Below are positions 28,053-44,094 of a DNA stretch of 48,244 nt, piece after piece. A program made the position numbers and the translations under genes. This DNA comes from Thermoplasmata archaeon (GTDB lineage: Archaea; Thermoplasmatota; Thermoplasmata; Lutacidiplasmatales; UBA184): positions 1 to 48,244 of the forward strand of contig JAJYWS010000026.1 of the NCBI GenBank assembly GCA_021791335.1. The letters run 5' to 3'. The notes under the pieces were generated by a model. The model was given only the letters and a program-made list of their open reading frames with translations. It did not search any database and had not been told where the DNA came from. The number at the start of each line of letters is the position of its first letter. The first letter of the stretch is position 1.

Positions 28053-28853
28053 ATGGAGGGCAGTTTCTTCCTCTTCACGGCGCTCGTGGTCGCGATGGCG
28101 CTCGCGATCTTCCTCTCGTTGCCGGTCGTCCTGAACCGTCGGGCGATGGGCGGTCGCACCCTGGTCCTCCTGAATGCGGGCGCCATCGGGATCCTTGCGT
28201 TTCTTTTGGCCGACATCTTTTCCGATGTCGCGCCGCTGCTGGCCAGCGCTTCGACCGCCTACTTGACCGATCCGGCCCTTGACCTGGTCTTCCTGGGCGG
28301 CCTCGCCCTCGCGTTCGGCCTGCTGATGTTCGCGGAGGGCCGGCCGAACGACCGACTCCGGGCTCCGGCCGGCACGGAGGTGTCCGAGTCGGCGTGGCGA
28401 CTCTCCTTCATCATCGCCTTGGGCATCGGATTCCAGAATCTGACCGAGGGCTTGGTCTTCGGGGCCTCCTGGGCGGCCGGCCAGGTGGGCCTTGTGGGGG
28501 TGGTCTTCGTCGGCTTCTTCCTCCAGAACATCACCGAAGGGTTCCCGATCGTCTCCCCGCTCCTCGGTCGGGTGGAGGCCCCGGCCCGGTGGCGGCGGCT
28601 CACGGGCCTCTTCCTGATCGGCGGGATCCCGACGATCCTCGGCGGCTTCATCGGGTTCCGGTTCAGTCCAGTCCCCCTCCTGATCTTCTTCGATGCCCTC
28701 GCCATGGGGGCCATCCTGTACGTCTTGCTCCCGATGCTCCGGGGGGCGCTCCGGTCCCAGGCAACCCCGGAGGCGACCCGGTACCGCGCCCGGCTGGTCT
28801 ACTGGGGCATCCTGGTCGGGTTCCTCGTCGGGTTCCTGGTGAACGCACTCTGA
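28053..28853 (+). CDS. ZIP-family metal transporter with altered metal-site histidines
   Basis: This 266-residue polytopic membrane protein has about eight hydrophobic helices. The two metal-binding helices are recognisable as 'FQNLTEGLVFGASWA' and 'FLQNITEGFPIVSP', corresponding to the ZIP signatures 'LHN..EG' and 'HN.TEG'. In both, the first histidine is replaced by glutamine while Asn and Glu are kept, which may change metal preference or rate. It probably moves a divalent metal (Zn, Fe or Mn) into the cytoplasm. It is divergent from an HTH/ferritin-like regulator, and its last 55 bp overlap the end of trpA on the other strand. Confidence 0.85.
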   Translation: MEGSFFLFTALVVAMALAIFLSLPVVLNRRAMGGRTLVLLNAGAIGILAFLLADIFSDVAPLLASASTAYLTDPALDLVFLGGLALAFGLLMFAEGRPNDRLRAPAGTEVSESAWRLSFIIALGIGFQNLTEGLVFGASWAAGQVGLVGVVFVGFFLQNITEGFPIVSPLLGRVEAPARWRRLTGLFLIGGIPTILGGFIGFRFSPVPLLIFFDALAMGAILYVLLPMLRGALRSQATPEATRYRARLVYWGILVGFLVGFLVNAL

Positions 28854-29635
28854 GAGCGGCCGGAGGCAAGCGCCCGGACGAGCTTCCGAGCCGGGTCGTC
28901 CCCGTCGCCGTTCGACCAGATCTCCTCCAGGGCCGAACCCACGATGACCCCGTCCACACCGAGGCGGGCCGCCTCACGGGCCGTGGTCGCGTCCCGAATA
29001 CCGAAGCCGGCCAGGATCGGGAGATCGGGGGCCGTGTGACGGACCGTCTCCACCAGGGGCTTCAAGGGCGGTGCCGGGTTCGACCCTCCGCGGCCGGTGA
29101 TGCCGTAGCGGCTGACCAGGTAGAGGAATCCCCGGGCCGAACGGGCCACCGTCCGGGCCCGGTCGGGGTCGGCGCCCGGGGCCAAAAACCGGACCAGATC
29201 GATTCGGTGGGACCGGGCGCGGTCGGACCATGCCCGGGCCTCGTCCTCGGCGAGGTCGGGGACGATCAGCGCGGACGCCCCGGCCTCGGCGAGTTCCTCC
29301 AGCGGCCTCCCCGCTCCATCCCGCAGGAGGGGGTTCACGTAGGACATCACCGCGACCGGAAGGACCGTGGCGGCCGCCTGGACGGTCGCCAGCACGTCCT
29401 TCCAGCCGGTCCCGTGTTCGAGCGACCGTGCCGCGGCCTCCGCCAGGATCGGGCCGTCGGCGATCGGATCCGAAAACGGGATGCCGACCTCGACGGCGTG
29501 GGCCCCGGCCTCGCGCAGGATCCCCAGACGGTGCCTGACGGTCGGGGTGCGCCGTCGATCGGCCAATAGGTAGGGAACGACCAGGAATTCGCCGCGATCC
29601 CGCGCTTGGCGCAGTCCCTGCGCGAGCGGGATCAT
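28799..29635 (-). CDS. trpA: Tryptophan synthase alpha subunit
   Basis: This 278-residue TIM barrel cleaves indole-3-glycerol phosphate to indole and glyceraldehyde 3-phosphate. The catalytic acids lie in '[16 protein letters not shown]' (Glu and Asp); the active-site loop is '[14 protein letters not shown]' and the phosphate site is '[13 protein letters not shown]...[11 protein letters not shown]'. It is the last gene of the aro-trp operon, overlapping trpB by 4 bp. The final ~18 residues (a [10 protein letters not shown] repeat) are encoded in the 55 bp shared with the convergent ZIP gene and go beyond the usual end of the family. Confidence 0.95.
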
Positions 29636-30780
29636 GCGGAGAGCCCCTCCAGATCCTTGTCACCGCGACCCGAGAGGGTCACCACAATGTGCTGGCCCCG
29701 GCGCCGGCGGGCCTCCCGAACCGCCGCGTACACCGCATGGGCCGATTCCAGGGCCGGAAGGATCCCCTCATCCTCGGCCAGCCAGTGGAACGCGCGCAGC
29801 GCTTCCTCGTCATGGACCGCCCGGTATCGGGCTCTCCCGCTCTCCTTGAGCTCGGCATGCTCCGGTCCGACCGCGGGGTAGTCCAGTCCCGCGGAAAGAC
29901 TCGCCGTCTCGAGGACCTGCCCGTCCGGGTCCTGCAGCAGGTAGGAGTAACTCCCGTGAAGCACGCCGGGGGTGCCGCGCGTCAGGGAGGCCGCCCCGGT
30001 CGCATGCCCGGCCGGCCCACCGGCCTCGATCCCGAGGAGTTCGGTCGGCTGGCCGAGCAGGGGGTGGAAGGTGCCGATGGCGTTGCTGCCGCCGCCCACG
30101 CAGGCGACCGCGAGATCGGGGGGGCCTCCCCACGCCGCCCGGCTCTGACGAAGGATCTCCCGGCCGATGACGCTCTGGAAGGCCGCGACGATCGTCGGGA
30201 AGGGGTGCGGCCCGACCACCGACCCGATGAGGTAGTGGGTCGTCGGGAGGTTTTCGGTCCAATCCCTCAGCGCGGCGTTGATCGCATCCTTGAGGGTCCG
30301 ACTTCCGGTGGTCACGGGGACCACCCGGGCGCCGAGGAGCCGCATCCGCAGCACGTTCGGCCGTTGGCGGGCGATATCCCGCTCTCCCATGTAGACGATG
30401 GTCTCGAATCCCAGGGCCGCCCCGACCATGGCCGTGGCCACGCCGTGTTGGCCGGCCCCGGTCTCCGCGATGAGCCGGGGCTTGCCCATCCGACGGGCCA
30501 GGACCGCCTGGCCGATCGCGTTGTTGATCTTGTGCGCCCCCCCGTGGAGGAGATCCTCCCTCTTGAGCCAGATCTCGGCCCCCTTCCCTCGAAGGGTCAG
30601 CCGGGGGGCCCGGTAGAGGGGTGTCGGCCGGCCCGCATAGGTGCGGAGACGGTCGGAGAGCTCTGCGCGGAACTTCGGGTCGCGGCGCGCCGAGCCCCAT
30701 GCCCGCTCCAGTTCGCGGAGCGCCGGAACCAGCGTCTCGGGGACGTAGGCGCCTCCGAACCGCCCGAAGCGGCTAGGCAT
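29632..30780 (-). CDS. trpB: Tryptophan synthase beta subunit
   Basis: This 382-residue PLP enzyme joins indole and serine to tryptophan. The PLP lysine is in '[20 protein letters not shown]', the catalytic Glu is in '[13 protein letters not shown]', and the phosphate loop is '[12 protein letters not shown]'. The N-terminus '[13 protein letters not shown]' and the length identify the canonical TrpB1 type that works with TrpA, not the longer TrpB2. It overlaps trpF by 8 bp. Confidence 0.97.
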
Positions 30781-31417
30781 GGTTCGCCTCCGCGGCCTCG
30801 ACGGCGTTCAGGAACGCGCGGATCCGGTCGGACGACTTGACGCCGGGGGACGATTCGATCCCGCTCGAGGTATCGACCCCCCACGGTCGGGCCCGACGCA
30901 GCGCCTCCCCGACGTTCTCGGGTGTGAGTCCTCCGGCGAGGATGAGCTTCCGTCCCGGGTGCGCCTCGCCGAGGGCGGCCGCCGCGTCCCAATGGGCGAT
31001 CTGTCCGGTACCTCCCGGACGGGCCGGGTCGTCCGAGGAGTCGAGATGGATCCGGGGGAACTCCTCGGCCGGAGGCAGCGCCGGAAGCGAGGCGGCGTCG
31101 GGCGGTAGCGGGAAGGACGGGACCAGGTGGTGCCGCTCGAGGAAGTCCAAACCGTCCGGTATCGACCCGTAGACCTGGATCCGGTCGACGCCGACCTCAT
31201 CGAAGAGCGCGTGGATCCGGTCCGCGCTGGGGCCGACCACGACCGCCCACGCCTCCGTCCCCTGGGGGACGGCCGAGACCAGGGCGGCCGCTTGCTCAAG
31301 GGAGATGCTGCGGGGAGACCCCGGCACCTCGACCACAAAGCCGGCCGCACCTCCGGCCGGGAGCAGATCCATGAAGTCGGTCGACGTGAGGCCGCACAAC
31401 TTGACAAAGGTCTTCAT
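30773..31417 (-). CDS. trpF: Phosphoribosylanthranilate isomerase
   Basis: This 214-residue TIM barrel performs the Amadori rearrangement of phosphoribosylanthranilate. '[14 protein letters not shown]' carries the catalytic Cys, '[14 protein letters not shown]' is the usual SPR motif, the C-terminal phosphate site is '[29 protein letters not shown]', and the catalytic Asp is in 'IHLDSS'. The ATG at 31417 overlaps the trpC stop by 4 bp. Confidence 0.95.
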
Positions 31418-32208
31418 CCGTGATGCCCTTCCCCCGGCCCCCGGAGGGAGGCGAGGAACCTCAAGGGGTCTTCGCTCCGGGCCACGGCGCTCCCGACCAG
31501 GATCGCGTCGGCCCCCCGGCGCCAGAACCACTCGGCGGTCTCCGGGCCGGTCACTCCGCTGAGCCCGACGACCGCCGTACGGTGCGAGAGTGCCCCGAGC
31601 GTGGCCGAGGCTGTGGCGCGGTCGATCTCCAGCGTGTCCAGGTTCCGGACGTTGACTCCGATGAGGTCGGCCGGCACCCGGTCGACCCAATCCAATTCGT
31701 CCGGTGCGTGGAGCTCCAAGAGCACCTCCAGGCCCAGCGCATGGGCCCGGTCGGCGAGTCCGGCCAAGGGGACCTCGATGCCCGCCCGGGGGAGCGAGGC
31801 CAGGAGGAGGATCGCCGAGGCTCCGCTCCGCGCCGCGCAGTCGACCTGTCGGGGATCGATGACGAAGTCCTTGAAGAGCGCCGGTCGCGGGTCGTTCCGG
31901 GTGAGCTCTCTCAGATCGCTCGGGGACCCTTGAAAGTGGGGGGCGGCCGTGAGGCACGAAAGGCCCGCAACGGGGGCACCCCGGAGACGGTCAAGAAACT
32001 CATCGATCCGGTACTGCGGGAGGGGATGACCGGAACTTCCGGGAGCAGCCCGCTTGTACTCCACTATCAGGGCCTGCCGGCCCGCCGAGTGGAGCGCCTC
32101 CCGAAGGGAGGGGTGCGGCCGGGGCTCGGTGGCCGGTGATGCGTAGCCCCCGGCCTCGATGATCGGTCGGAGCTCCCCGACCATCTGCCGTAGAAATCCC
32201 CGGGTCAT
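31414..32208 (-). CDS. trpC: Indole-3-glycerol phosphate synthase
   Basis: This 264-residue TIM barrel forms the indole ring by decarboxylative closure of CdRP. Family residues seen are the catalytic Lys in 'LIVEYKRAAPGSSG' (usually E.KR.SPS.G; the Glu-Tyr-Lys here is a mild variant), the second Lys in 'LFKDFVIDPRQV', the Glu in 'VLLELHAPDEL', 'IGVNVRNLDTLEID' and the phosphate site 'GADAILVGSAVARSEDP'. It starts at the ATG overlapping trpD by 4 bp. There is no fusion with TrpF, which is a separate gene. Confidence 0.94.
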   Translation of the reverse strand: MTRGFLRQMVGELRPIIEAGGYASPATEPRPHPSLREALHSAGRQALIVEYKRAAPGSSGHPLPQYRIDEFLDRLRGAPVAGLSCLTAAPHFQGSPSDLRELTRNDPRPALFKDFVIDPRQVDCAARSGASAILLLASLPRAGIEVPLAGLADRAHALGLEVLLELHAPDELDWVDRVPADLIGVNVRNLDTLEIDRATASATLGALSHRTAVVGLSGVTGPETAEWFWRRGADAILVGSAVARSEDPLRFLASLRGPGEGHHG

Positions 32209-33245
32209 CTCGGCTCCTCCGGCCACTCGTCGCCCGCGGCCAGTTCCCGAAGCCGGCCGAGGAGTTCCTTGGGACGCCCGGAGTCGATCAACTCCCGAGC
32301 GCGGACCACCCCGGCCTCCAGACTGGGGGAGCGTCGGGCCAGAACGAGCGCCGCGGCGGTGGTCAGGACCACCGCACCCCGTCGCGCACCGGGGGCTCCG
32401 GCCAGCAGCGCCTCGGCGGCCCGGGCCGACGCCCGGGGGCGGAGGGCTCCCCAGGCGCCCCGGCGTTCCGCAGGCTCGAGCAGGGTTTCGGGCCGGAGGG
32501 TTGCCGACCGGGGTCGGGATCCCAGAGCCCACCAGAGGGAGGTGGGGTTCTGGGGGGAGATCTCGTCGCACCCCTCCGAGGAGCTGAGACCAACCACACG
32601 TCTGACGCCGCGTCGTCGCAGCGCGTCGACCAACAACCGGGCCGACTCGGCGTCTGGGGCTCCCACCAACTGGTAGGTGGGCCGAGCCGGGGTGATGAGG
32701 GGGCCCATGAGGTTGAAGACCGTCCGCCGACCGAGGGTCCGGCGTGCGGCCGCGACCCGGGCCACGGCAGGATGGAAGAGCGGGGCATGCAAGAAGGCGA
32801 TCCGGTAGCGCCGATACGTCGCCCGTGCGAACGACCGGGAGCGGGCGACCGGGAGTCCCCAGGCCTCCAGGAGATCGGTGGAGCCGGTGAGCCCGCGGGA
32901 ACTCCGGTTCCCGTGCTTGATGACCGGGATCCCGTCGGAGGCCACCACCAGCGCGCTCACCGTCGAGACGTTGAACGAGGGGACCGGGGCTCCCCCCGAC
33001 CCACACAGGTCGATCGTTTGGTCCGTCGAGGGGACGGGAAACGGGCGCATCTCCCGGCGGAGTACCTCGGCCCAGCGATGGAGGCGAGCTCCGGTGAGCG
33101 GCAGGTCCTGGATCCGCCGGAGCAGGGCGAGCCGTTCGCCGTCGTCGGTCTCCGGCCCGATGAGCCGTTCAAAGAGACCTTGGGCGGGATGCGGCGCGGG
33201 CTCGGGGGATCTTCGTCGGGGGGGCCGGGGGCGGGGGGTATTCAC
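32205..33245 (-). CDS. trpD: Anthranilate phosphoribosyltransferase
   Basis: This 346-residue protein transfers phosphoribose from PRPP to anthranilate. The PRPP loop appears as 'IDLCGSGGAPVPSFNVST' where most relatives have D.VGTGGD....NIST, followed by 'VIKHGNRSSRGLTGSTDLLEAWG' and 'FNLMGPLITPARPTYQLVG'. The start is taken as the GTG at 33245, which overlaps the trpG stop (GTGA) and has GGAGG 7 nt upstream. The first ~25 residues are Arg/Pro-rich and non-conserved. Confidence 0.9.
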   Translation of the reverse strand: MNTPRPRPPRRRSPEPAPHPAQGLFERLIGPETDDGERLALLRRIQDLPLTGARLHRWAEVLRREMRPFPVPSTDQTIDLCGSGGAPVPSFNVSTVSALVVASDGIPVIKHGNRSSRGLTGSTDLLEAWGLPVARSRSFARATYRRYRIAFLHAPLFHPAVARVAAARRTLGRRTVFNLMGPLITPARPTYQLVGAPDAESARLLVDALRRRGVRRVVGLSSSEGCDEISPQNPTSLWWALGSRPRSATLRPETLLEPAERRGAWGALRPRASARAAEALLAGAPGARRGAVVLTTAAALVLARRSPSLEAGVVRARELIDSGRPKELLGRLRELAAGDEWPEEPR

Positions 33246-33826
33246 CGGCGCACCTCCGCCAGGAAGTTGGCCAGGATGGTGGGCCCCTCCGGAGTCAGGT
33301 ACGACTCCGGGTGGAACTGCACGCCCCAGAGCGGCCATTGAGTGTGACGGAGGCCCATCAGGATTCCCCCGCTCCCCCAGGCGGTCGGCTCGAGGGTCGC
33401 GGGCAGCCTTCGCGAGTCGACGAGGAGCGAGTGGTACCGGGCGGCCCGAAACGGGGACGGCACCCCCCGGAACAGCCGATCCCCCGCATGGACGATCCGA
33501 TCGGTGTCCCCATGCACCGGTTCGGGGGCCCGGACAATCCTCCCCCCGGAGTATTCCGCGATGAGCTGATGACCGAGACAGACCCCGAGGATCGGTCGGG
33601 ACGATCCCCATCGACGGAGGATGGCCCGGCTGAGCCGTGTCCGCCGGGGGTCGGAGGGCTGGCCCGGACCCGGGGAGAGCACGATCGCCTCCGGGTCGGC
33701 CGCTTCGGCCTCGGCCCACGGTCGGGTCGACCTCAGGCAGCTCACCCGGGCCCCTTGGCGCGATAGCTCCTGGACCAGGTTCTGGGTGAACGAATCCTCA
33801 TGGTCGACGACCAGGACCCGCGTCAT
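33242..33826 (-). CDS. trpG: Anthranilate synthase glutamine amidotransferase subunit
   Basis: This 194-residue class I glutamine amidotransferase supplies ammonia to TrpE. The triad is the Cys in 'ILGVCLGHQLIAEYSGG' and the His and Glu in 'GVQFHPESYLTPEG'; the oxyanion segment is 'VLSPGPGQPSD'. The start overlaps trpE by 4 bp. It could also serve para-aminobenzoate synthase, as TrpG does in some organisms. Confidence 0.95.
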   Translation of the reverse strand: MTRVLVVDHEDSFTQNLVQELSRQGARVSCLRSTRPWAEAEAADPEAIVLSPGPGQPSDPRRTRLSRAILRRWGSSRPILGVCLGHQLIAEYSGGRIVRAPEPVHGDTDRIVHAGDRLFRGVPSPFRAARYHSLLVDSRRLPATLEPTAWGSGGILMGLRHTQWPLWGVQFHPESYLTPEGPTILANFLAEVRR

Positions 33827-35019
33827 GGGGACCCCGCAAGGACCGACTCGACCAGGGCGAGCTTGGCGAGGGTCTCCTGATACTCCCGACGGGGTTCGGA
33901 ACGGTGGACGATGCCGGCGCCGGCGGCGGTGTAGAGGCGATTCCCCGCCGCAAAGCCGGTGCGGATCGCCAGGGCCCAATCGGCCCGGTCATGGCCCGAG
34001 ATCCAGCCGACCGCGCCGGCATACGGCCCCCTCCAGGTCCGTTCCTCGGCCCGGAGCAGCTCGGTGGCCCGGATCTTCGGCGCCCCGGAAACGGTCCCGG
34101 CGGGCAGGGTTACGGCCAGGGCCTCCCAGGCACCGACCCCCTTCGCCAACGAGGCTTCGACCCGGCTCACGAGGTGCTCCATTCGGGCGACGCGCAGCCG
34201 TCGCTCGGTCCAGCGGAGCCGTACCGTCCCCGGGCACGCGATCCGCCCGAGATCGTTCCGGGCCAGGTCGACGAGCATCCGATGTTCGGCGAGCTCCTTG
34301 GGGTCGCGCGTGAGCGGCCGGCGCCCCCGGCCCTCGCGGCCGAGGGGCCGGGTCCCCGCGATCGGGTTGACCCGTCCCCATCGACCCTCGACTTCGACGA
34401 CCGACTCCGGTGAGGCTCCGACAACCTCTCGGTCGCCGAACCGGAGATAGTAGAAGTACGCCGACCGCTCCGACGCCCGCAGTTCCCCGGCCCGGTCCAG
34501 GAGATCCGCCGGCCGGTCCCAGCCGCGCCGGTGCGACAGGACGACCTGGAACGCTTCTCCCGCCCGGATCTGTGCGACGAGGTGCCGGACCGAGCGCTCA
34601 TAGGCCGGGCGGCTCAGGGAGTCCTCCCGGGGCACCCCGGGGCGGCGGCGGGTCCGACGGAGCCGGAGCCTTCCCACCGGCAGCCGGACGGTCCGGACCG
34701 ACTCCAGCCGGGCGAACTCCCCCAGCGGAAACGGGGCCCGGCCCGGCGGGCTCCCGAGCATCGGCTCTAAGAGGCCCACCCCATCGAACCCCAGGTAGCC
34801 GGCAACGGCCCGCCGACGGTGCCCCCGAAGATACCGGTCGGAGGCGCGGCCCAGACCCTCCCAGCTGTCCTTCGGGCCCACCGGTTGCGCGGGCTCGGGG
34901 GAGATCGCCCACTGGGCCACCCCCCCATTGCCCTCGGGACCGGTCCGCTCGAAGTAGGCCACGGTTTCCGCCGTCCGGGCGCCGGCGGCCGATACAAACT
35001 CGATCCAGGGATCGGTCAT
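33823..35019 (-). CDS. trpE: Anthranilate synthase component I, short N-terminal part
   Basis: This 398-residue chorismate-utilising enzyme makes anthranilate. The catalytic core is clear: 'FQVVLSHR', 'NPIAGTRPLGREG', 'DPKELAEHRMLVDLARNDLGRI', 'RMEHLVSRVEA', 'TLPAGTVSGAPKIRATELL' and 'YAGAVGWIS'. The protein is shorter than usual (typically 450-520), and the N-terminal 'LLES' motif that forms the tryptophan feedback pocket in studied TrpE enzymes is not recognisable, so inhibition by Trp may be weak or different. It could in principle be PabB, but its place directly before trpG, trpD and trpC makes TrpE much more likely. It overlaps lysC by 4 bp. Confidence 0.92.
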   Translation of the reverse strand: MTDPWIEFVSAAGARTAETVAYFERTGPEGNGGVAQWAISPEPAQPVGPKDSWEGLGRASDRYLRGHRRRAVAGYLGFDGVGLLEPMLGSPPGRAPFPLGEFARLESVRTVRLPVGRLRLRRTRRRPGVPREDSLSRPAYERSVRHLVAQIRAGEAFQVVLSHRRGWDRPADLLDRAGELRASERSAYFYYLRFGDREVVGASPESVVEVEGRWGRVNPIAGTRPLGREGRGRRPLTRDPKELAEHRMLVDLARNDLGRIACPGTVRLRWTERRLRVARMEHLVSRVEASLAKGVGAWEALAVTLPAGTVSGAPKIRATELLRAEERTWRGPYAGAVGWISGHDRADWALAIRTGFAAGNRLYTAAGAGIVHRSEPRREYQETLAKLALVESVLAGSP

Positions 35020-36335
35020 GGTCGGGGCGGAATCTCCACGAGCGCCCGATGGAGCGCCCGAAGGGTCGGACCCAGATCGGCGGTACGGACCGCCAGCGAG
35101 AGCGCCCGGGGGGTGGCGGCGACTCCGAGGGTGGTCCGGAGGATGCTCCGCGGCAGGCGGTACAGATCCTCGAGGATCCGCTCACCGATCGCGATGACCA
35201 TCTCCACCTCCTGAGGCGGTTCGACCGTCATCTCCCGATGCTGCACCAGACGGGCCAGGGCCCTCCGGGCCGTGCCCGCCTCCCGGGATTCCACGATCGC
35301 GCAGAGCATCGTCGCCGACGTGTAGAGCTGGATGACGTTCACCTGGGCCGCGGCCAGGCACCGGGTGACCTCGGCCATGATGCCCGGCTGTTCCCGGCCC
35401 CCCGGCACGCGGAGCCCGAGGAGGCGGAGCGAAGGGAGGACGGTCAGGGCTCGGGGGGTCCCGTGGTCGATCGCCGGGCCCACGGTGGTGGTCTGCCGAG
35501 GATCCGCCAGGGATCGGACGAGGATGGGGATGCGGGCCTGCCGCGCCGGCTCGATCGCCCAGGCATGCAGGACGCGGGCGCCGAACTGGGCCAACTCCTC
35601 GGCCTCCTCGTAGGAAAGGTAGCCGAGCGGCCGGGATCGGGGGACCCAACGGGGATCGGCCGACCGGATCGATACCCGCTGCTTGAGGAGCTCGACCCGA
35701 CGCGCGCCGAGCATCGCTCCGAGGGCTGTCGCGCTGTAGTCCGAACCGCCCCGGCCGAGGGTGGTGATCGTCCGGCCCGGCCCCTGCCCGAAGAAGCCGG
35801 TCACCACCGGGATGCGATCGGCCGCCCAGACCCGATCGATCCTCCGGCGCACCGTCGCTCGCGAGGCCTCCAGCCGGATCCGGGCCGCCCCGAAGTTCCG
35901 GTCGGTCCTGAGCCCCAGCCGGTCGGCGTCCAGGGAGGTCGCGGCGAGCCCTCGAAGGTTCATCTCATGGGCCAACCACACGGCCGCCAGCCGTTCCCCC
36001 TGCGCGGCGAGTCGATCGAGCTCGGAAGGCTCGCGGGATCGGGACGCCACGATCCCCCGCAGCGTCGCGTCCACCGTCTGCAGGATCGGATCGATCCCCG
36101 GGGCGGGTACCGGATGGCGCCGGCGAAGTTCATCGAGGAGCCGTGGGATCCGAGTCGAACGGACCGGGGGCCGGGCCGATTGGAGGAGCCGGTCGGTCAC
36201 CCCCTCCCGGGCCGAGACCACCACCAGGAGTGGGTTGCCCGGACCGCCCCGGAGCCGGATCCAGCGCACGACCCTGGCGGGATCGGAAAGCGCGGCCCCG
36301 CCGAACTTGAGCACGATCGGCGCCGGATCAGTCAC
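35016..36335 (-). CDS. lysC: Aspartokinase with C-terminal ACT domains
   Basis: This 439-residue protein phosphorylates aspartate. The kinase signature 'IVLKFGGAALSDP' opens the protein, 'LGRGGSDYSATALGAMLGA' is the nucleotide/Asp site, and the ACT pair occupies about residues 300-439 ('LLGLRVPGGREQPGIMAEVTRCLAAAQVNVIQLYTS'). Start is a GTG overlapping asd by 8 bp. In this operon its product feeds aspartate semialdehyde to ADH synthase, as well as any Thr/Met/Lys synthesis elsewhere. Confidence 0.94.
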   Translation of the reverse strand: MTDPAPIVLKFGGAALSDPARVVRWIRLRGGPGNPLLVVVSAREGVTDRLLQSARPPVRSTRIPRLLDELRRRHPVPAPGIDPILQTVDATLRGIVASRSREPSELDRLAAQGERLAAVWLAHEMNLRGLAATSLDADRLGLRTDRNFGAARIRLEASRATVRRRIDRVWAADRIPVVTGFFGQGPGRTITTLGRGGSDYSATALGAMLGARRVELLKQRVSIRSADPRWVPRSRPLGYLSYEEAEELAQFGARVLHAWAIEPARQARIPILVRSLADPRQTTTVGPAIDHGTPRALTVLPSLRLLGLRVPGGREQPGIMAEVTRCLAAAQVNVIQLYTSATMLCAIVESREAGTARRALARLVQHREMTVEPPQEVEMVIAIGERILEDLYRLPRSILRTTLGVAATPRALSLAVRTADLGPTLRALHRALVEIPPRP

Positions 36336-37410
36336 GGCCCCTCCCCGCGGTGAGTTCGATCCCCCGCCGGTCGACCAGTTCGGCGTTCAAGACCGATCCT
36401 CCGGCCCCCCCCCGCACGGCGTTGTGGGTGAGGGTGAAGAACCTCAGGAACGGGGGATCCCAGCGGATCCGGCCCACGACCGCGGCCATGCCTTGGGCCC
36501 GCCGAGGCGATCCCGCCCAGCGGTCCCGCAGGGGTTGGGGACGGTCGGCTTCCCGGCGCAGCAGGATCGGGGGAGACGGCGCCGTCGGGAGCCGCTCCGC
36601 TCGAAGGGGATCGAAGTGGCTCCAGGCCCGCTCCAACTCGGCCCGTGGGGGGCGTTGGGTGGCCTCGACCGTCACGGCCAGCAGGTGCCCCTCCCGGGTA
36701 CCGACCCGGGCGCACTGGGCCAGGACCCGGCAGGGCCAGGGGCCGATCCGCCCGCCCCGGCGGCGGCCCAGGATGCGGGCCGTTTCGCGTTCGATCTTCT
36801 CTTCCTCCTCCGGGATGTACGGGATGACGTTGTCGGTGATCGCCAGCGAGGGCACTCCGGGGAGACCGGCCCCGCTCAGGGCCTGGTAGGTCGTCACCTG
36901 GATCGTCCGAGGAGCGAGCAACTCCTTCACCGGGGCGAGCGCCAGGACCAGTCCGGTCGTCGAGCAGTTGGCATTGGCCACCAGGAGGCCCCGACCCCGT
37001 GGACGTCGGTCGGCCAGTCCCAGGTGATCCGCATTGACCTCCGGGATCAAGAGCGGGATCTCCGGGTCCATCCGGTGATCGGCGGCGTTCGAGAAGACGG
37101 CCATCCCCTGGCGGGACAGCTCGCTTTCGATGGGACCGGCGATGCCGGAGGGGAGTGCGGAGAAGATCGCGCGGATGCCGCGCCGCCGGAGCGCCGACGG
37201 TCCGACCGTTTCCACGGGCCGACGGGCGAGGGCCTCCGGGGGAGGATCGGCAAGATGCCAGAGGTCCTCCAGCCGGGAGCCTCGGCGCCGGGCGGTCCCT
37301 CCCAGGACCTGAAGGTCGAACCGCGGGTGGTCGGCGAGGAGGCGGACGAACTCCTGGCCGATGTACCCGGTCGCCCCGAGCACGGCGACCGGAATCCGCT
37401 CCTCGGTCAT
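36328..37410 (-). CDS. asd: Aspartate-semialdehyde dehydrogenase (archaeal/fungal type)
   Basis: This 360-residue enzyme reduces aspartyl phosphate with NADPH to aspartate semialdehyde. It shows 'VAVLGATGYIGQEF' (nucleotide loop), the catalytic Cys149 in 'NANCSTTGLVLAL', 'YQALSGAGLPGVPSL..TDNVIPYI..EEEK' and the general-base His242 in 'GTREGHLLAVTVE'. The insertion pattern matches the archaeal/fungal subfamily. The ATG overlaps aroC by 4 bp. In archaea that lack DAHP synthase, aspartate semialdehyde is a direct substrate for aromatic synthesis, which explains its position between aroC and lysC. Confidence 0.95.
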   Translation of the reverse strand: MTEERIPVAVLGATGYIGQEFVRLLADHPRFDLQVLGGTARRRGSRLEDLWHLADPPPEALARRPVETVGPSALRRRGIRAIFSALPSGIAGPIESELSRQGMAVFSNAADHRMDPEIPLLIPEVNADHLGLADRRPRGRGLLVANANCSTTGLVLALAPVKELLAPRTIQVTTYQALSGAGLPGVPSLAITDNVIPYIPEEEEKIERETARILGRRRGGRIGPWPCRVLAQCARVGTREGHLLAVTVEATQRPPRAELERAWSHFDPLRAERLPTAPSPPILLRREADRPQPLRDRWAGSPRRAQGMAAVVGRIRWDPPFLRFFTLTHNAVRGGAGGSVLNAELVDRRGIELTAGRGRD

Positions 37411-38495
37411 GGCAGAAACCCTCCCCGGAGGGCCAGGTCGGCCAGCGCCATCGCGGTGACCGACTCCAACGCCACCACCGCCCGGGGGACGATGCAAGGG
37501 TCGTGCCGCCCGGTCACGGTGACGGTGGTGTCGGTATGGTCCCGGAGGTCCACCGTCGCCTGAGGTCGGGCGATCGAGGAGGTGGGTTTGACCGCGAACC
37601 GGACCCGCAGCGGCATGCCCGTCGCGAGCCCCCCGAGGATGCCCCCGGAGTGATTGGTCCGGGTCTCCACCCGGTCGCCGACCCAGTGGAATGGGTCGTT
37701 GTGCTCACTCCCCCGCATCCGAGCCGCCCGGAACCCGGCCCCGAACTCGACGCCCTTGACGGCCGGGACGGAGAAACCGGCGTGGGCCACCACGCTCTCG
37801 ATGGAGTCGAAGAACGGTTCGCCGAGACCGACCGGGAGTCCGGTGGCTCTCACCTCCACGATGCCCCCCAAGCTGTCGCCCTCGCGGCGGGCCGCCCCGA
37901 TCGCCTCGGCCATCGCCTCCGCTACGGCCGGGTCGGGCGTGCCGACTTCGTGGAGGTCGCGTCGGGCCCTGAGCTCGGGGATCGACCATGATTCGGGTAC
38001 CGTCGCCTCGACCCCGCCGATCGACTGGGTGAAGCCGGCGACCTGGATCCCCCGGGGACCGAGCAGCTGGCGGGCGATGCTGCCGGCGATCACCAACCCC
38101 ACCGTCATCCGGCCGGAGAAGATTCCTCCCCCGGAAAGGTCGGCCTCCTCCCCGTACCGGATCCTCGCCGGATAGTCGGCGTGCCCCGGCCTCGGCGTGT
38201 ATCGGAGTCGGTCGTACGGGCCCCGCTGGACATCCGTGTTGGCCACATGGGCCCGGATCTCCCCGCCGTCGCTGCGTCCCTGGACGATACCGGAGTCGAT
38301 CACCAGCCGATCCTCCTCCTGACGTCGGGTCGCGAGACGACGCCCGACCGGACGGCGTCGGTCCAGGTCGGCTTGGATCTGCTCGAGATCCAGCGGAGTC
38401 CCGGCGGGGATGCCCGAGATCCGGGCCCCGACCTCGGGTCCATGGCTCGATCCGAAGATGGTCACGCGCATCCGAACACCCCACTCCATGCTCAT
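37407..38495 (-). CDS. aroC: Chorismate synthase
   Basis: This 362-residue, FMN-dependent protein removes phosphate from EPSP to give chorismate. Motifs are 'VTIFGSSHGPEVGARISGIPAG' (usually FGESHG; Glu is Ser here), 'YTPRPGHADYPARIRYG', 'GGGIFSGRMT', 'MRGSEHNDPFHWVGDRVETRTNHSGGILGGLATG' and the C-terminal 'VTGRHDPCIVPRAVVALESVTAMALAD'. The start at 38495 overlaps the aroA stop by 4 bp. A second Met two codons later is an alternative. Confidence 0.95.
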   Translation of the reverse strand: MSMEWGVRMRVTIFGSSHGPEVGARISGIPAGTPLDLEQIQADLDRRRPVGRRLATRRQEEDRLVIDSGIVQGRSDGGEIRAHVANTDVQRGPYDRLRYTPRPGHADYPARIRYGEEADLSGGGIFSGRMTVGLVIAGSIARQLLGPRGIQVAGFTQSIGGVEATVPESWSIPELRARRDLHEVGTPDPAVAEAMAEAIGAARREGDSLGGIVEVRATGLPVGLGEPFFDSIESVVAHAGFSVPAVKGVEFGAGFRAARMRGSEHNDPFHWVGDRVETRTNHSGGILGGLATGMPLRVRFAVKPTSSIARPQATVDLRDHTDTTVTVTGRHDPCIVPRAVVALESVTAMALADLALRGGFLP

Positions 38496-39772
38496 CGCAG
38501 TTTCTCCATCCTGACCCCGGCCGAGCCGAAGGCCGTACGAAAGGTCGGAAACGACTTGGCGGCCGACTCGCTGGGCCCGAGGATCGACGGCTCCGGCAAA
38601 GCCAGGGCGGCCACCAATGCGCTCAGGAAGAGCCGGTGGTCGGCGAGGTCGGTGCGCCGGAGCGATCGGGGGGGACTCCGCCCGACAATCTCGATCTCGT
38701 CCCGGGTGACCCGGGTCCGGGCCCCGAGCGATCGGGCGAGCAGGGCTGTGGTCGCCCGGCGGTCCGACTCCTTGAAGGCGGCGTGGCCGGCCCCCCGCAG
38801 TCGACTCGGGCCCGGGGTCAGGGCCGCCAGGACTCCCGCCAGGGGTAGAAGGTCGGGGGAGCGGGTGAAGTCCCAGACAAAGGGACGGCGCTCGCCGGCG
38901 CCGACCGAGGCCCCGTCCGGACGCCGGGTCACGCGGGCACCCCACGCCTCGAGGAGATCCAGCACCTCCCGATCGGCCTGGGGCCACTGGGGCCCCATCC
39001 CCGAAACCGTTACCCGGCCCCCGGAGACCGCGGCCCCGGCCCACAGATAGGCGGCCGAGGAGGCGTCGGTCGGAACCGCGAACCGATCGCCCCGGTACTG
39101 TTGTGACCCGGGGGTGGTGAAGAGCCGACCGTCTCGCTCGGCGTCCACCCGGTGATAACGGAGCACCGCCAACGTCGCGTCCAAGTACGGCTCGGAGACA
39201 ATCGGCCCTTCCAGACGGACCCGGGACGGTCCGTCCAGGACGGGAAGGGTCAGGAAGAGGGCCGAAGCGAACTGGGAGCTTTCGGACATCGGCAGGGTCA
39301 CGGTCCCCGAGTGGAGAGGGCCCTGGAGCTGGAGTGGGAGACCGCCGTTCCCGGCCCGTGGGGAATGTATCCGGGCGCCCAGGCGACCGACGGCCCGAAG
39401 GAGGGGGGCCAGGGGTCGCGCTCCCAGCCGGGGAGCCCCGATCAGGCCCACCGGGGCGCCAGAGAGGGCGGCGAGGGGCACCGCGAATCGGAGGGTGGTT
39501 CCCGACTCGCCGCAGTCGACGCGTCGGAGTCGGGAGGGCCGGCTCGACCCGGGGGTCAGGGTCCAATCGGAGGCGCGCCGCTCAACGTGGGTACCGAGGG
39601 CCCGGAGCAACCGCACGGTCGCCCGCGTGTCTTCGGAGTCCAGGGGCCGGAGCAGCCGGAACCTCCGCCCGGCCAGATGAGCCGCGACCAGGGCCCGATG
39701 GGTGTAGCTCTTCGACGGCGGGCCTCGGACCGATCCGCGGAGGGATTGCGGGGTGACCCGAAGGCGACTCAT
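38492..39772 (-). CDS. aroA: EPSP synthase (3-phosphoshikimate 1-carboxyvinyltransferase)
   Basis: This 426-residue protein has the complete set of substrate-binding motifs: 'GPPSKSYTHRALVAAHLA', 'DSEDTRATVRLLRALG', 'DCGESGTTLRFAVPLAAL', 'SQFASALFLTLPVL', 'TDASSAAYLWAGA', 'PDLLPLAGVLAAL', 'AAFKESDR', 'DHRLFLSALVAAL' and 'KSFPTF'. It adds the enolpyruvyl group of PEP to shikimate 3-phosphate. It overlaps the shikimate kinase gene by 4 bp and the chorismate synthase gene by 4 bp. Confidence 0.97.
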   Translation of the reverse strand: MSRLRVTPQSLRGSVRGPPSKSYTHRALVAAHLAGRRFRLLRPLDSEDTRATVRLLRALGTHVERRASDWTLTPGSSRPSRLRRVDCGESGTTLRFAVPLAALSGAPVGLIGAPRLGARPLAPLLRAVGRLGARIHSPRAGNGGLPLQLQGPLHSGTVTLPMSESSQFASALFLTLPVLDGPSRVRLEGPIVSEPYLDATLAVLRYHRVDAERDGRLFTTPGSQQYRGDRFAVPTDASSAAYLWAGAAVSGGRVTVSGMGPQWPQADREVLDLLEAWGARVTRRPDGASVGAGERRPFVWDFTRSPDLLPLAGVLAALTPGPSRLRGAGHAAFKESDRRATTALLARSLGARTRVTRDEIEIVGRSPPRSLRRTDLADHRLFLSALVAALALPEPSILGPSESAAKSFPTFRTAFGSAGVRMEKLR

Positions 39773-40617
39773 GAACGCCCTCCGCCCATGGGGCCGCGAC
39801 CCAATCGGCCCACCGAGAACTGCCGACCCTCGGCGGGAAGGACCGCGCCGATGGAGGGAAGCCGGTCGGGCGGACCTACCGCGACCAGCGCCGGTCCCAT
39901 CCCCGAGACCCCGGCCGCGATCGCGCCCGCCCGGCCCATCGCCGCACGGATCTCCGTAAAGTCGTAGCCCATGGCAGACTCGACCAGGAGGCCGTTGGCG
40001 TCGAGGGCGGGGGCCAGGTGGCCTTCGAGGACCATCCGCTCGACCGGCTGGGCGCTCGACCGGAGCCCCGCGAACCGGGCGACCGCGGTCGGCGACGGCG
40101 GGTGGGTCCGATCGGGCACAAAGACGACCGCCCCCCAATCCGGGGGGACGGGGTGGGTGAGGAGCCAACGATCCTGCCGGTTGTCGGTCACGACGACCCC
40201 GTCCACAAGCCCCGCCAGAGCGTCGTCCAAGGCGCCGGTCGCGCTGAGGCCCACCGACCGTCCGACTCGGGCCGATAGACGGGCGATCTCGAAGGGGGTC
40301 GGGTGGGCCCCCAGGAGGTCGGCGACCGCGGCCAGCGTGGCCGAGGCCACCGCGCTCGAGCTCTTGAGGCCCCGCCCGGCGGGGATCTCGGAGCGGATCT
40401 CGACCTGAATCCGGGGCGTTTCCGACCCGCCCCACTCGGTGCGGCCCACCTCGATGGCCCGGGTCACCAGGGGGCTAGCTCCGGCGGAGGGGACGGGGTC
40501 GGCTTGGAACCTCGCCTGGACCTCGACCGCCAGCGGCAGGGCCGTGGCCGCTCCGATCCCGGTGAAGAGGGCGTTGAGGAAGGTCATCGCTCCCGTCGCC
40601 CGCCCTATGCCTCGCAC
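39769..40617 (-). CDS. Archaeal shikimate kinase (GHMP superfamily)
   Basis: This 282-residue protein is of the GHMP kinase type used by archaea in place of bacterial AroK. The N-terminus 'GRATGAMTFLNALFTGIGAA' and the ATP loop 'EIPAGRGLKSSSAVASA' (residues ~77-93) match the archaeal family. Further blocks are 'SATGALDDALAGL' and 'GVSGMGPALVAVG'. The start is the GTG at 40617, overlapping aroDE by 13 bp: it has GGAGG 7 nt upstream and restores the family's usual N-terminus, whereas the ATG at 40587 would remove it. Confidence 0.92.
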   Translation of the reverse strand: MRGIGRATGAMTFLNALFTGIGAATALPLAVEVQARFQADPVPSAGASPLVTRAIEVGRTEWGGSETPRIQVEIRSEIPAGRGLKSSSAVASATLAAVADLLGAHPTPFEIARLSARVGRSVGLSATGALDDALAGLVDGVVVTDNRQDRWLLTHPVPPDWGAVVFVPDRTHPPSPTAVARFAGLRSSAQPVERMVLEGHLAPALDANGLLVESAMGYDFTEIRAAMGRAGAIAAGVSGMGPALVAVGPPDRLPSIGAVLPAEGRQFSVGRLGRGPMGGGRS

Positions 40618-42107
40618 GGCTCTGCCTCCCGGAGCGCCTCCTCCACGAGTCGATCGGAGGGCGGCGTGCCCCACCAGATCCCGTACGAGGCGGCGGCCTG
40701 GTAGAGCAGGAGCCGCAGCCCGGATTCGTAGGAGGCGGCCCGGGCCGCGGCCGCGTTCCGAAGGCTCGGATCGGTCGCGGCGTAGACGAAGTCGAGCAGG
40801 TGACCCGAAGGGGCCAGCATCTCCCGGATCGGCAGGGCGTCTCCCGAGGGTCCGCGGCCGACCGGAGTGGCGTGGATCACCAGCGAGCTCGCCCGCCCCC
40901 GGCCGGGGGTCCAGCATTCGACTCCGAACTCACGGGCCAGTTGCTCGGCCATCAGGGCCCGGCGTCCCCAGATCGCCACCCGGGCACAGTGTTCCCGCCC
41001 CGCGACCACGGCCGACCGGGCCGCCCCTCCCGTGCCGGCCACCACCAGATCCTCCCCGCTCCAGACTCCCGAAACCTTCAGTTCGGTGAGCCTCCGCTGG
41101 ACCGCGTAAAGGTCGGTATTGTCGGCCCGGACCGTCGAGCCCTGGAAGGTCAACGTGTTGGCGCTGCCCACCGTTTCGGCGCTCGGCTGCCGCCGGTTCG
41201 CCGCCGTGAGCGCCGCCTCCTTGAAGGGCGCGGTCACATTCACTCCCCGCAGGCCTCCCTCGGCCAGCTTCGGGAGGATGCGGATCAGTTCCTGGGCCGA
41301 TTCCGGTTCGAGGGCCAAGTAGAGGCCCGCCCGGTCCTCGGCCCCCATCCAGCGGTGGTGGATCCACGGGCTCCAGGATCGGGCGGCGGGCCGCCCCACG
41401 ACAGCCAGGATCGGCGCCGGAGGTTCGGCTGCGTAGAACCGTCGAAGCCGGTCGACCGGTAGCTGGGCCGGATCGACCCGGCGGCTCACGTCGGTCGGCC
41501 GACGTTCGGGGGGCGCCGCAAACACATAGGGCAGACCGAGGCGCCGGCCCCAGGCCCGTTGGAGTGGGCCGGCCGGGCCGGTCGCCAGGAGCGTGACCCC
41601 CGAACGGGCCGCGGCCTGAGCGCGCGCCAAGATCTCGTCCAGGCCGGGGCCCAGGGTCACCGAAACGACGACTTTGCGAACCGCTCCCGAAGGGACCGGG
41701 TGCTGGAGCTCCCGCGCGAGGTCGGAGGGGGTCGCTTCCGGGGAGAGATGGGTCGACACCCAGACGGCCGGAGCCGGGCCCCCGGCGCCGCGGGCCGGGA
41801 GAGCGTCCCGGGCCGCCTCAAAGTCGATGGCGGCCCAGCCGGCCCCACCGACCCGCGCGCGAAGCCTCGCCCGCTCTGCGGGGTCGTCCGGACCTTCTCC
41901 CCCCTCCGCCCGCGAGCGCAGCGTCAGGAGGAGAGGAACAGGGCTCGGCAACAGTTCGCGGGCGCGGCTCCGATCCGGCTCCGACCATCGGTCCAGGCGG
42001 ATCTCGGCCATGTCGGCGCCGGCCCGGTGGGCGTCCGCAAGCTCCGTCCGGGCCTCGTCGAGACCCCGGGCCGTGAGCGTGACCACCAGGCGGGGAACCC
42101 CGTTCAT
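40605..42107 (-). CDS. Fused 3-dehydroquinate dehydratase (type I) and shikimate dehydrogenase
   Basis: This 500-residue bifunctional protein has two domains. Residues 1-~220 are type I dehydroquinase: 'MAEIRLDRW', the His base at 120 in 'VWVSTHLSPEATP', the Schiff-base Lys145 in 'VRKVVVSVT', and 'TGPAGPLQRAWGRRLGLPYVFAAPP'. Residues ~231-490 are AroE: 'LAVVGRPAARSWSPWIHHRWM', catalytic Lys296 in 'GVNVTAPFKEAAL', 'SANTL', Asp332 in 'ADNTDLYAV', and the NADP loop 'VVAGTGGAARSAV'. The fusion in this order resembles plant and chlamydial enzymes and would channel dehydroshikimate. It starts at the ATG overlapping the DHQ synthase gene by 4 bp. Confidence 0.94.
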   Translation of the reverse strand: MNGVPRLVVTLTARGLDEARTELADAHRAGADMAEIRLDRWSEPDRSRARELLPSPVPLLLTLRSRAEGGEGPDDPAERARLRARVGGAGWAAIDFEAARDALPARGAGGPAPAVWVSTHLSPEATPSDLARELQHPVPSGAVRKVVVSVTLGPGLDEILARAQAAARSGVTLLATGPAGPLQRAWGRRLGLPYVFAAPPERRPTDVSRRVDPAQLPVDRLRRFYAAEPPAPILAVVGRPAARSWSPWIHHRWMGAEDRAGLYLALEPESAQELIRILPKLAEGGLRGVNVTAPFKEAALTAANRRQPSAETVGSANTLTFQGSTVRADNTDLYAVQRRLTELKVSGVWSGEDLVVAGTGGAARSAVVAGREHCARVAIWGRRALMAEQLAREFGVECWTPGRGRASSLVIHATPVGRGPSGDALPIREMLAPSGHLLDFVYAATDPSLRNAAAARAASYESGLRLLLYQAAASYGIWWGTPPSDRLVEEALREAEPCEA

Positions 42108-43132
42108 CGCTCCTCGATCGACTCCTCGATCGCCTGCCCGAGATGCCGGCCCGGGGGGAACCGGCAGCCGACCAAGCGGTCGCCCGGGCGAAGACCGGTC
42201 ACCGGCGTTCGGCCGCGAGGCCCCGAAAGTCGTACCGTCTCCGCCTCCTGGACGAAAAGGGTGCGACTCCGGCCTTCGACAGTGACCTCCAGCAGCGTCA
42301 GGGGTCGACGTTCGATCTTGATCCGGCCGACCCGTACGGAACGGCCGTCCGCACGGGGGTCGCTGACGAACACCGCGTCCCCGGGGACGAGTTCGGAGAG
42401 GTATCGGGTCGTCCCGTTGGCCAGGAGGACATAGGAGTGGGCCGCGCCGGCGTTGACCCGAAAGGAGCGGGGCCGGGTGTAGGCCGAGCCCTCCGCCTCA
42501 CTGGCCACATGGAAGAGGAAGGCGGCGGTGCTGCCCACCAGCAACCCCTCCGACGGCCGCAGGATGGAGGTCGTATCCACGAGGACCCGGTCCCCCATGC
42601 CCGCCGGACGGAGGCTCCGGAGCCGGGCGAGCGTCCAGCCGGCCAGCGCAGGCGGGCGCGCCTCGAGAGCCGCCTCGACGCTGTCCACCGCGTCGAGCGA
42701 GTCGGCCGGAACCACCACGGCGTGGGCCCCATGTTCCAACGCGCCGAGTGCGGCCGGTAGCTCCGAGGGCCCATCGATCAGGGCCCAGACCCTAAACGAG
42801 GTTCCGGCATCGGCCCGGAGGTTTTCGAGGGGAATGACCCGGTCCCGGACCCACTCGACCGCCACCGCCCCCTCGCGAGCCCCGACCTCCCGAGCCCGGG
42901 CGAGGGCGGCGGGCGAATCGACCCGGACGATCGGGATCGGCGGGCCGTCCGGCCGGGGTCGCAGCTGGCGGCCGATCCGGTCGTAGATCCGGACCGTGCT
43001 TGTCGGCTGTCGGAGATCTTTCGGAGGAAGCACCAGCATCCCGAACCCGCGCCGCACCGCGTACTCGGCAATCCGTGTCCTCTCCGGGAGCGAATCGGCC
43101 GTGGGCTGGATGGCGACCCGCTCCCGCGTCAC
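42104..43132 (-). CDS. 3-dehydroquinate synthase II (archaeal type)
   Basis: This 342-residue protein converts 2-amino-3,7-dideoxy-D-threo-hept-6-ulosonate to 3-dehydroquinate with NAD, replacing bacterial AroB. Family blocks are 'VEWVRDRVIPLENLRAD', 'MGDRVLVDTTSILRPSEGLLVGSTAAFLFHV', 'RPRSFRVNAGAAHSYVLL', 'YLSELVPGDAVFV', 'VGRIKIERRPL', 'QEAETVRL' and the end 'GRHLGQAIEESIEE'. The GTG start overlaps the ADH synthase stop (GTGA). This is the second step of the aspartate-semialdehyde route to aromatics. Confidence 0.95.
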   Translation of the reverse strand: MTRERVAIQPTADSLPERTRIAEYAVRRGFGMLVLPPKDLRQPTSTVRIYDRIGRQLRPRPDGPPIPIVRVDSPAALARAREVGAREGAVAVEWVRDRVIPLENLRADAGTSFRVWALIDGPSELPAALGALEHGAHAVVVPADSLDAVDSVEAALEARPPALAGWTLARLRSLRPAGMGDRVLVDTTSILRPSEGLLVGSTAAFLFHVASEAEGSAYTRPRSFRVNAGAAHSYVLLANGTTRYLSELVPGDAVFVSDPRADGRSVRVGRIKIERRPLTLLEVTVEGRSRTLFVQEAETVRLSGPRGRTPVTGLRPGDRLVGCRFPPGRHLGQAIEESIEER

Positions 43133-43891: not shown

Positions 43892-43900
43892 CTCCCTCTC
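43892..43900 (-). promoter_or_regulatory. Shine-Dalgarno of ADH synthase, possibly sequestered
   Basis: On the minus strand gagagggag lies directly upstream of the ATG at 43890. It can pair over 9 positions, one of them G-U, with cuccctttc at 43918-43926 in the leader, which would hide it from ribosomes. Confidence 0.6.
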
Positions 43901-43946
43901 GAAGGTTGAGCCCAATCGAAAGGGAGGCACGGGGAAGGCGGCGAGG

Positions 43947-43963
43947 GGTGGCCGTCGGCCACC
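43947..43963 (-). promoter_or_regulatory. Leader hairpin B
   Basis: The sequence ggtggccgacggccacc is a perfect 7-bp GC-rich stem with a 3-nt loop. It lies inside the long-range repeat and is compatible with both alternative folds, so it may act as a structural spacer. Confidence 0.6.
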
Positions 43964-43970
43964 GTCGGTC

Positions 43971-43987
43971 GGCACCCTCCCGGTGCC
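43971..43987 (-). promoter_or_regulatory. Leader hairpin A
   Basis: The sequence ggcaccgggagggtgcc has a 6-bp perfect stem and a 5-nt loop, starting 6 nt after the leader-peptide stop codon. A ribosome on the stop codon would cover its 5' arm. It competes with the long-range 43922-43991 pairing. Confidence 0.55.
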
Positions 43988-43993
43988 TCCCGA

Positions 43994-44065
43994 TCACCAG
44001 AGCCACGGCATGGCCGCTCCGGTGAGACCGCCTGTGAAAACAAGCCGGCTCGCCGGGTCTGCCAT
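43994..44065 (-). CDS. Candidate tryptophan leader peptide (23 residues, ends MPWLW)
   Basis: This small ORF runs from the ATG at 44065 to the TGA at 43996-43994. Its sequence begins MADPAS and ends A-A-M-P-W-L-W-stop, so two of the last three codons are Trp. A TATA box is centred ~26 nt upstream of the ATG, which means a leaderless transcript of the aro-trp operon would begin exactly at this start codon. Hairpins and alternative pairings follow directly after the stop, ahead of ADH synthase. The layout matches bacterial trp leader peptides, where ribosome position at Trp codons controls expression. Translation is not proven; a shorter version from the internal ATG at 44011 (MPWLW) is possible. 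Confidence 0.6.
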   Translation of the reverse strand: MADPASRLVFTGGLTGAAMPWLW

Positions 44066-44088: not shown

Positions 44089-44094
44089 TATTTA
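44089..44094 (-). promoter_or_regulatory. TATA box of the aro-trp operon
   Basis: Minus-strand taaata (in cgctaaatagc) includes the TAA stop of the upstream TenA-like gene and is centred 26-27 nt before the leader ATG at 44065. No other TATA-like sequence lies between here and ADH synthase at 43890, so this should be the operon promoter. Confidence 0.6.

Follow-up and report, generated by a model that had tools for sequence, protein, structure and literature searches.

A probable tryptophan leader peptide and Shine-Dalgarno switch upstream of the aromatic amino acid operon in a family of Thermoplasmata

The window, meaning the whole stretch of 48,244 nucleotides that was analysed, corresponds to contig 8 in an archaeal MAG of 1.4 Mb; one close named relative (L032) is a Thermoplasmata archaeon with an ADH synthase 87% identical to that of the window. 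Its minus strand carries an aromatic/tryptophan operon of 15 genes. The top NCBIfam matches of the first gene were two models of ADH synthase (2-amino-3,7-dideoxy-D-threo-hept-6-ulosonate synthase), both below their curated cut-offs, and these best matches, together with its leading position in an aro operon, make ADH synthase its probable identity. The genes that follow are, in order, DHQ synthase II, AroDE, shikimate kinase (GHMP type), EPSP synthase and chorismate synthase, then Asd (aspartate-semialdehyde dehydrogenase), aspartate kinase, TrpE, TrpG, TrpD, TrpC, TrpF, TrpB and TrpA. Several operon genes overlap by a few bases, from which we infer that the whole operon could respond to control of gene 1. 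The features between the upstream gene and the operon, and the operon itself, are listed below.

44089..44094, minus strand: TATA box TAAATA, identified from the sequence, sharing bases with the stop codon of the TENA/haem-oxygenase-like gene that lies upstream
43994..44065, minus strand: leader ORF of 23 codons, MADPASRLVFTGGLTGAAMPWLW followed by a stop, based on conservation of the frame in homologues
43997..44005, minus strand: regulatory codons TGG CTC TGG (Trp-Leu-Trp), adjoining the stop, based on conservation of WxW-stop
43982..43991, minus strand: segment B, GGGAGGCACC, with B' or C as its partner
43971..43981, minus strand: segment B', GGGAGGGTGCC, loop and 3' arm of a local hairpin, with B or C' as its partner, based on conservation of the hairpin with one compensatory pair and on the long hairpin in the fold
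43932..43940, minus strand: segment C', CGCCTTCCC, partner of B' in the long hairpin, based on the stall-state fold and matching changes in L109 and L110
43918..43930, minus strand: segment C, GTGCCTCCCTTTC, with B (ON) or the Shine-Dalgarno (OFF) as its partner
43892..43900, minus strand: segment D, the Shine-Dalgarno region of ADH synthase, GAGAGGGAG, identified from the sequence, with a 16S 3' end containing CCTCC present in the genome
43129..43890, minus strand: probable ADH synthase, operon gene 1 (ATG at 43890-43888), based on NCBIfam, the DeoC/LacD fold family and the aro-operon position
28799..43132, minus strand: remaining operon genes, DHQ synthase II through TrpA

In the window and relatives alike, the leader ATG follows the TATA box (in most cases TAAATA) at a distance of about 29-30 nt, and the message is therefore probably leaderless, beginning with the ATG at 44065. 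The initial annotation had proposed a leader peptide with Trp codons at this site and had placed the first Trp codon (44005-44003) correctly, but the ORF, whose stop is at 43996-43994, is longer than it had assumed, with 23 codons from 44065; a minimal leader, MPWLW, was dropped in favor of this ORF. An ORF ending in WxW and a stop precedes the element in 48 loci from the genus of the window and also in further genera, and this terminus was found in 59 of 60 leaders from five genera, the exception being L030 (GSW and stop). The residue between the Trp codons varies (L, S, P, A or G) whereas the codons themselves are fixed, which is as expected for codon sensing and not for a sequence-specific arrest peptide. 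Among the 57 of 60 leaders that could be tested, i.e. those with a recognisable TATA box and ATG, the ATG was in frame in all 57, internal stops occurred in none, and the length was exactly 23 codons in 49. This length is constant in those 49 of 57 homologues despite varying N-terminal residues. In L028 and L030 the aligned start codon of ADH synthase is ACG and TTG, respectively, with the leader otherwise intact. The interval between TATA box and leader ATG contains GGAGG-like words in some relatives, and in the window a 13-mer (GCACCGGGAGGGT) is present both there (44088-44076) and within B/B' (43986-43974).

Segment B follows directly after the leader stop. Its positions 43991-43983 (GGGAGGCAC) pair with 43930-43922 of C (GTGCCTCCC) over 9 bp with zero mismatches, while 43926-43918 of C (CTCCCTTTC) can pair with D (43900-43892) over 9 bp including one G-U. 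The two alternative pairings of C that had been described initially, with B or with the Shine-Dalgarno, are thus all present in the sequence at the coordinates given for them. This exchange stood, but the scheme was incomplete: it had missed a local hairpin B:B' (43987-43982 with 43976-43971), which competes with B:C and is kept in relatives, as well as B':C' (43981-43973 with 43940-43932), which stacks onto B:C to give a single long hairpin. Within the RNA, conservation is highest in the B:B' hairpin, and a block of 36 nt that is almost invariant within the genus contains an inverted repeat.

The B:C duplex of the window has an energy of -20.5 kcal/mol compared to a shuffled mean of -13.8 (z -3.6), and none of 200 shuffles equalled it. 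For 48 loci together the mean z against dinucleotide-shuffled downstream sequence was -1.9, and 54% of the loci individually reached p<=0.05. The covariation check suggested with the initial annotation was run and found covariation in B:C, where G-C and C-G of the relatives give way to A-U in the window lineage (B position 8) and to U-A in L109 (position 7). In the B:B' helix one compensatory pair is seen, G-C to A-U in the window lineage, and B':C' shows the matching changes in L109 and L110 listed above. About 96% of B:C cells pair across 54 sequences, a count that is biased towards pairing because the partner was picked by energy. When partners were permuted among 60 sequences, the real mean energy was never reached in 5000 trials for B:C and likewise for C:D, without correction for relatedness; an earlier swap test of C:D with 48 sequences had given only p 0.02, and the larger set was clearer. 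In several lineages B has no preference for its own C, since G-U pairs tolerate changes.

To follow the pairings in different ribosome positions, the ribosome was modelled by deleting the RNA that it covers, with a 3' footprint assumed from bacteria. Mean predicted accessibility of the Shine-Dalgarno in 48 loci was 0.53 for a ribosome stalled at the first Trp codon and 0.37 for one at the second Trp codon; it was 0.33 with the ribosome at the stop and 0.47 without a ribosome. Accessibility at the first-Trp stall exceeded that at the stop in 45 of the 48 loci, so folding agrees with the sign proposed initially, in which a first-Trp stall frees the Shine-Dalgarno; the response to Trp itself is inferred. 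The difference between stall and stop was 0.198 for real and 0.001 for shuffled leaders (sd 0.014; shuffling limited to the middle region), i.e. the proposed control with shuffled leaders did not reproduce the switch. Held-out loci of other genera, which were not used in forming the model, gave 0.22 compared to 0.025 for shuffles (sd 0.029). For one leader of this kind, upstream of trpE in G216, the switch was -0.07 or 0.23 depending on which of two candidate start codons was used, and the lower value entered the mean. A scan of the ribosome edge placed the change in accessibility exactly where the edge crosses B, and from stall to stop the expected base pairs went from 7.6 to 1.2 for B:C and from 4.0 to 7.6 for C:D.

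Several outcomes of this model speak against the reading that we prefer below. The predicted switch is weak in the window itself (0.24 versus 0.08) and in L003, which like the window showed little switching, and small in L110 (0.07), and the footprint is bacterial. In the stall state B:B' would be a competitor of B:C, and it was favored there in 9 of 54 sequences; for a ribosome stalled at the second Trp codon, the accessibility of 0.37 predicts a nearly OFF state.

A covariance model built on the leader end together with B:B' matched 53 of 78 genus genomes at 57-73 bits and otherwise nothing above about 26 bits. In a sample of 293 genomes of the phylum, further strong matches were limited to two genera of the same family and lay, in both, upstream of ADH synthase. 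The next-best matches in this wider search (L111 and L112) lie within a presumed gyrA coding region without a nearby ADH synthase and were discarded. A TATA-ATG-WxW pattern added a fourth genus (five genomes, WSW and stop, before ADH synthase) as well as G216 of a fifth genus; a second match in G300 (C61) was rejected as the start of a thioredoxin-like gene. Pattern matches outside the family were scattered and of the same kind that the backward control yields. Directly before their ADH synthase, other Thermoplasmata (L066, L067, L071 and L072) share another conserved word, similar to GTGTTAACACGTAGCACGGT, which is perhaps an operator or a different RNA element.

TrpC was searched as PF00218 across the same 78 genomes. 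Among genomes with ADH synthase, 43 had leader and trpC, 10 the leader only (all incomplete MAGs), none trpC only and 13 neither (Fisher p 5.6e-8). The 25 genus genomes that are at least 90% complete divided into 17 with both and 8 with neither, without a mixed case. Two incomplete genomes, G013 and G049, had trpC and no leader, and a clear ADH synthase gene was not found in their assemblies. A tree built on ADH synthase and DHQ synthase places the leader in the ancestor of the sampled family, and three changes are enough for each trait. A single loss was rejected (p-AU 7e-8), with G071 having independently lost both leader and trpC; co-loss thus comprises at least two independent events. Three independent pairs were concordant, a number too small for a sign test. 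In genus g36, ADH synthase and the trp genes lie apart, and in G216 of this genus the leader (MAAGPCHVSYDARPAMSSCAWGW and stop) is located directly before trpE, with none before ADH synthase. The presence and loss linked to trp genes and the G216 leader before trpE indicate that the leader follows the trp genes. Against this, G161 and G396, also of g36, carry trpC without such a leader.

Thirteen genomes of the same genus as the window (L008, L010, L013, L031, L046, L049-L051, L053, L054, L059, L060 and L065) have kept ADH synthase and lack both leader and trpC, which suggests that they are Trp auxotrophs retaining shikimate genes. HisG, considered with regard to a His leader, was found in just 3 of the 78 genus genomes, and most members of the genus look like His auxotrophs.

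Taking these data together, we consider a Trp-responsive translational attenuator the probable function of this archaeal element, although its translation, the stalling of ribosomes, the response to Trp and the sign of that response are inferred without expression or probing data. The computational analysis shows the ORF, the conservation of its frame and of WxW, alternative pairings that depend on the ribosome edge, and the linkage to trp genes. In the proposed mechanism the leaderless mRNA would start at the ATG of the 23-codon leader ending in Trp-Leu-Trp and a stop. With charged tRNA-Trp scarce, the ribosome would stall when the first Trp codon occupies its A site and leave B unmasked, so that B:C and B':C' could form one long hairpin, the Shine-Dalgarno of ADH synthase would remain open and the operon would be translated (ON). 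With ample Trp, the terminating ribosome at the stop codon is inferred to mask B, and C would pair with the Shine-Dalgarno (OFF). B:B' probably re-forms fast behind each ribosome and would make OFF the default without a ribosome, a role that is likewise inferred. The overall interpretation of the initial annotation is in this way largely supported, with stalling, masking and the Trp response remaining inferences.

Several properties expected of an attenuator are present. A short ORF rich in codons for the end product precedes its pathway, here the WxW leader before the aro-trp operon or trpE, and it is under coding constraint as in amino-acid attenuators (in frame in 57 of 57). Mutually exclusive structures that depend on ribosome position are supported by folding only, and an alternative pairing that hides or frees the Shine-Dalgarno (C:D versus B:C), as in translational attenuators, by folding and permutation. 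A hairpin terminated by a U-run before gene 1, as in trpL, is missing: no T-run longer than 4 occurs between leader stop and gene, with the longest being 1-4 in 54 sequences. A search of Rfam returned no family match for the leader, only two sub-threshold miRNA matches. The lack of a U-run and of an Rfam match favors translational control, as had been proposed from the missing U-run.

The same leader might act by transcription attenuation, with alternative hairpins setting termination of RNA polymerase (intrinsic or by FttA/aCPSF1) before ADH synthase. Its anatomy matches bacterial trpL as far as the last hairpin, and the polymerase might be paused or released by the GC-rich B:B', which immediately follows the leader stop; the short T-runs and a conserved pairing exchange that terminates on the Shine-Dalgarno nevertheless render this unlikely. 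We regard as just as unlikely a Trp attenuator with B:B' as its regulatory core and a different sign or output, e.g. one in which passage of the ribosome melts B:B' and alters mRNA stability or ribosome queuing. The conservation of B:B' and the ribosome-free fold of the window, in which B:B' forms together with C:D, would suit such a device, but it leaves unexplained the conservation and placement of C as well as the own-partner advantage of B:C and C:D. A role of the conserved block as a DNA operator, bound by a repressor at GGCGCC-N5-GGCGCC, appears very improbable: the near-invariance of the 36 nt with their inverted repeat and the control of archaeal trp operons by DNA-binding proteins elsewhere (PMC6737238) are compatible with it, but it predicts neither an in-frame WxW ORF nor the distant partner C with its compensatory changes. 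Chance complementarity, against which the initial annotation urged caution in view of the GC-rich leader, is contradicted by shuffle controls, held-out loci, five-genus conservation and trp-gene linkage and is hardly tenable.

Leader-peptide attenuation is a textbook mechanism of bacteria. Ribosome-mediated transcription attenuators of the trpL type are found in enterobacteria as well as in Corynebacterium and Streptomyces (PMC1262725). The archaeal element shares with them a short leader ORF with Trp codons close to the stop, RNA pairings that exclude each other according to where the ribosome stands, and a position before trp genes, but differs in that it has no U-run terminator, its last pairing hides the Shine-Dalgarno, its message is probably leaderless, an additional hairpin (B:B') competes, and it sits on a joint aro-asd-lysC-trp operon. 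In ermC/ermCL and the actinobacterial LEU element before leuA (PMC1262725), a stall in the leader ORF is likewise proposed to free the Shine-Dalgarno of the next gene. The archaeal signal, unlike that of ermC, would be uncharged tRNA-Trp and not a drug, and in contrast to the LEU element, whose leucine codons pair with the Shine-Dalgarno (PMC1262725), a separate segment, C, is used.

Archaeal Trp regulation is little known beyond TrpY (PMC6737238). TrpY of Methanothermobacter and Tar/TK0271 of Thermococcus are DNA-binding regulators of trp/aromatic genes (PMC6737238); control of such an operon by amino-acid supply would be common to them and the element described here, whereas in the latter the signal would be read by the ribosome on RNA. 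The uORF4u paper states in general terms, in passages that give no example, that leader peptides act in archaea too (PMC10219788). An archaeal leader-peptide attenuator was not found in the open-access literature, with subscription literature outside the scope of the search, and a first archaeal case is accordingly a lead and not a finding.

The switch can be tested directly with a reporter. We find it likely that this family of Thermoplasmata uses ribosome-mediated amino-acid attenuation, with a leaderless 23-codon Trp leader and a Shine-Dalgarno switch that are lost with the trp genes. If true, ribosome position and RNA folding would serve amino-acid control in a second domain of life, and would do so on a probably leaderless message, at translation and not at termination.
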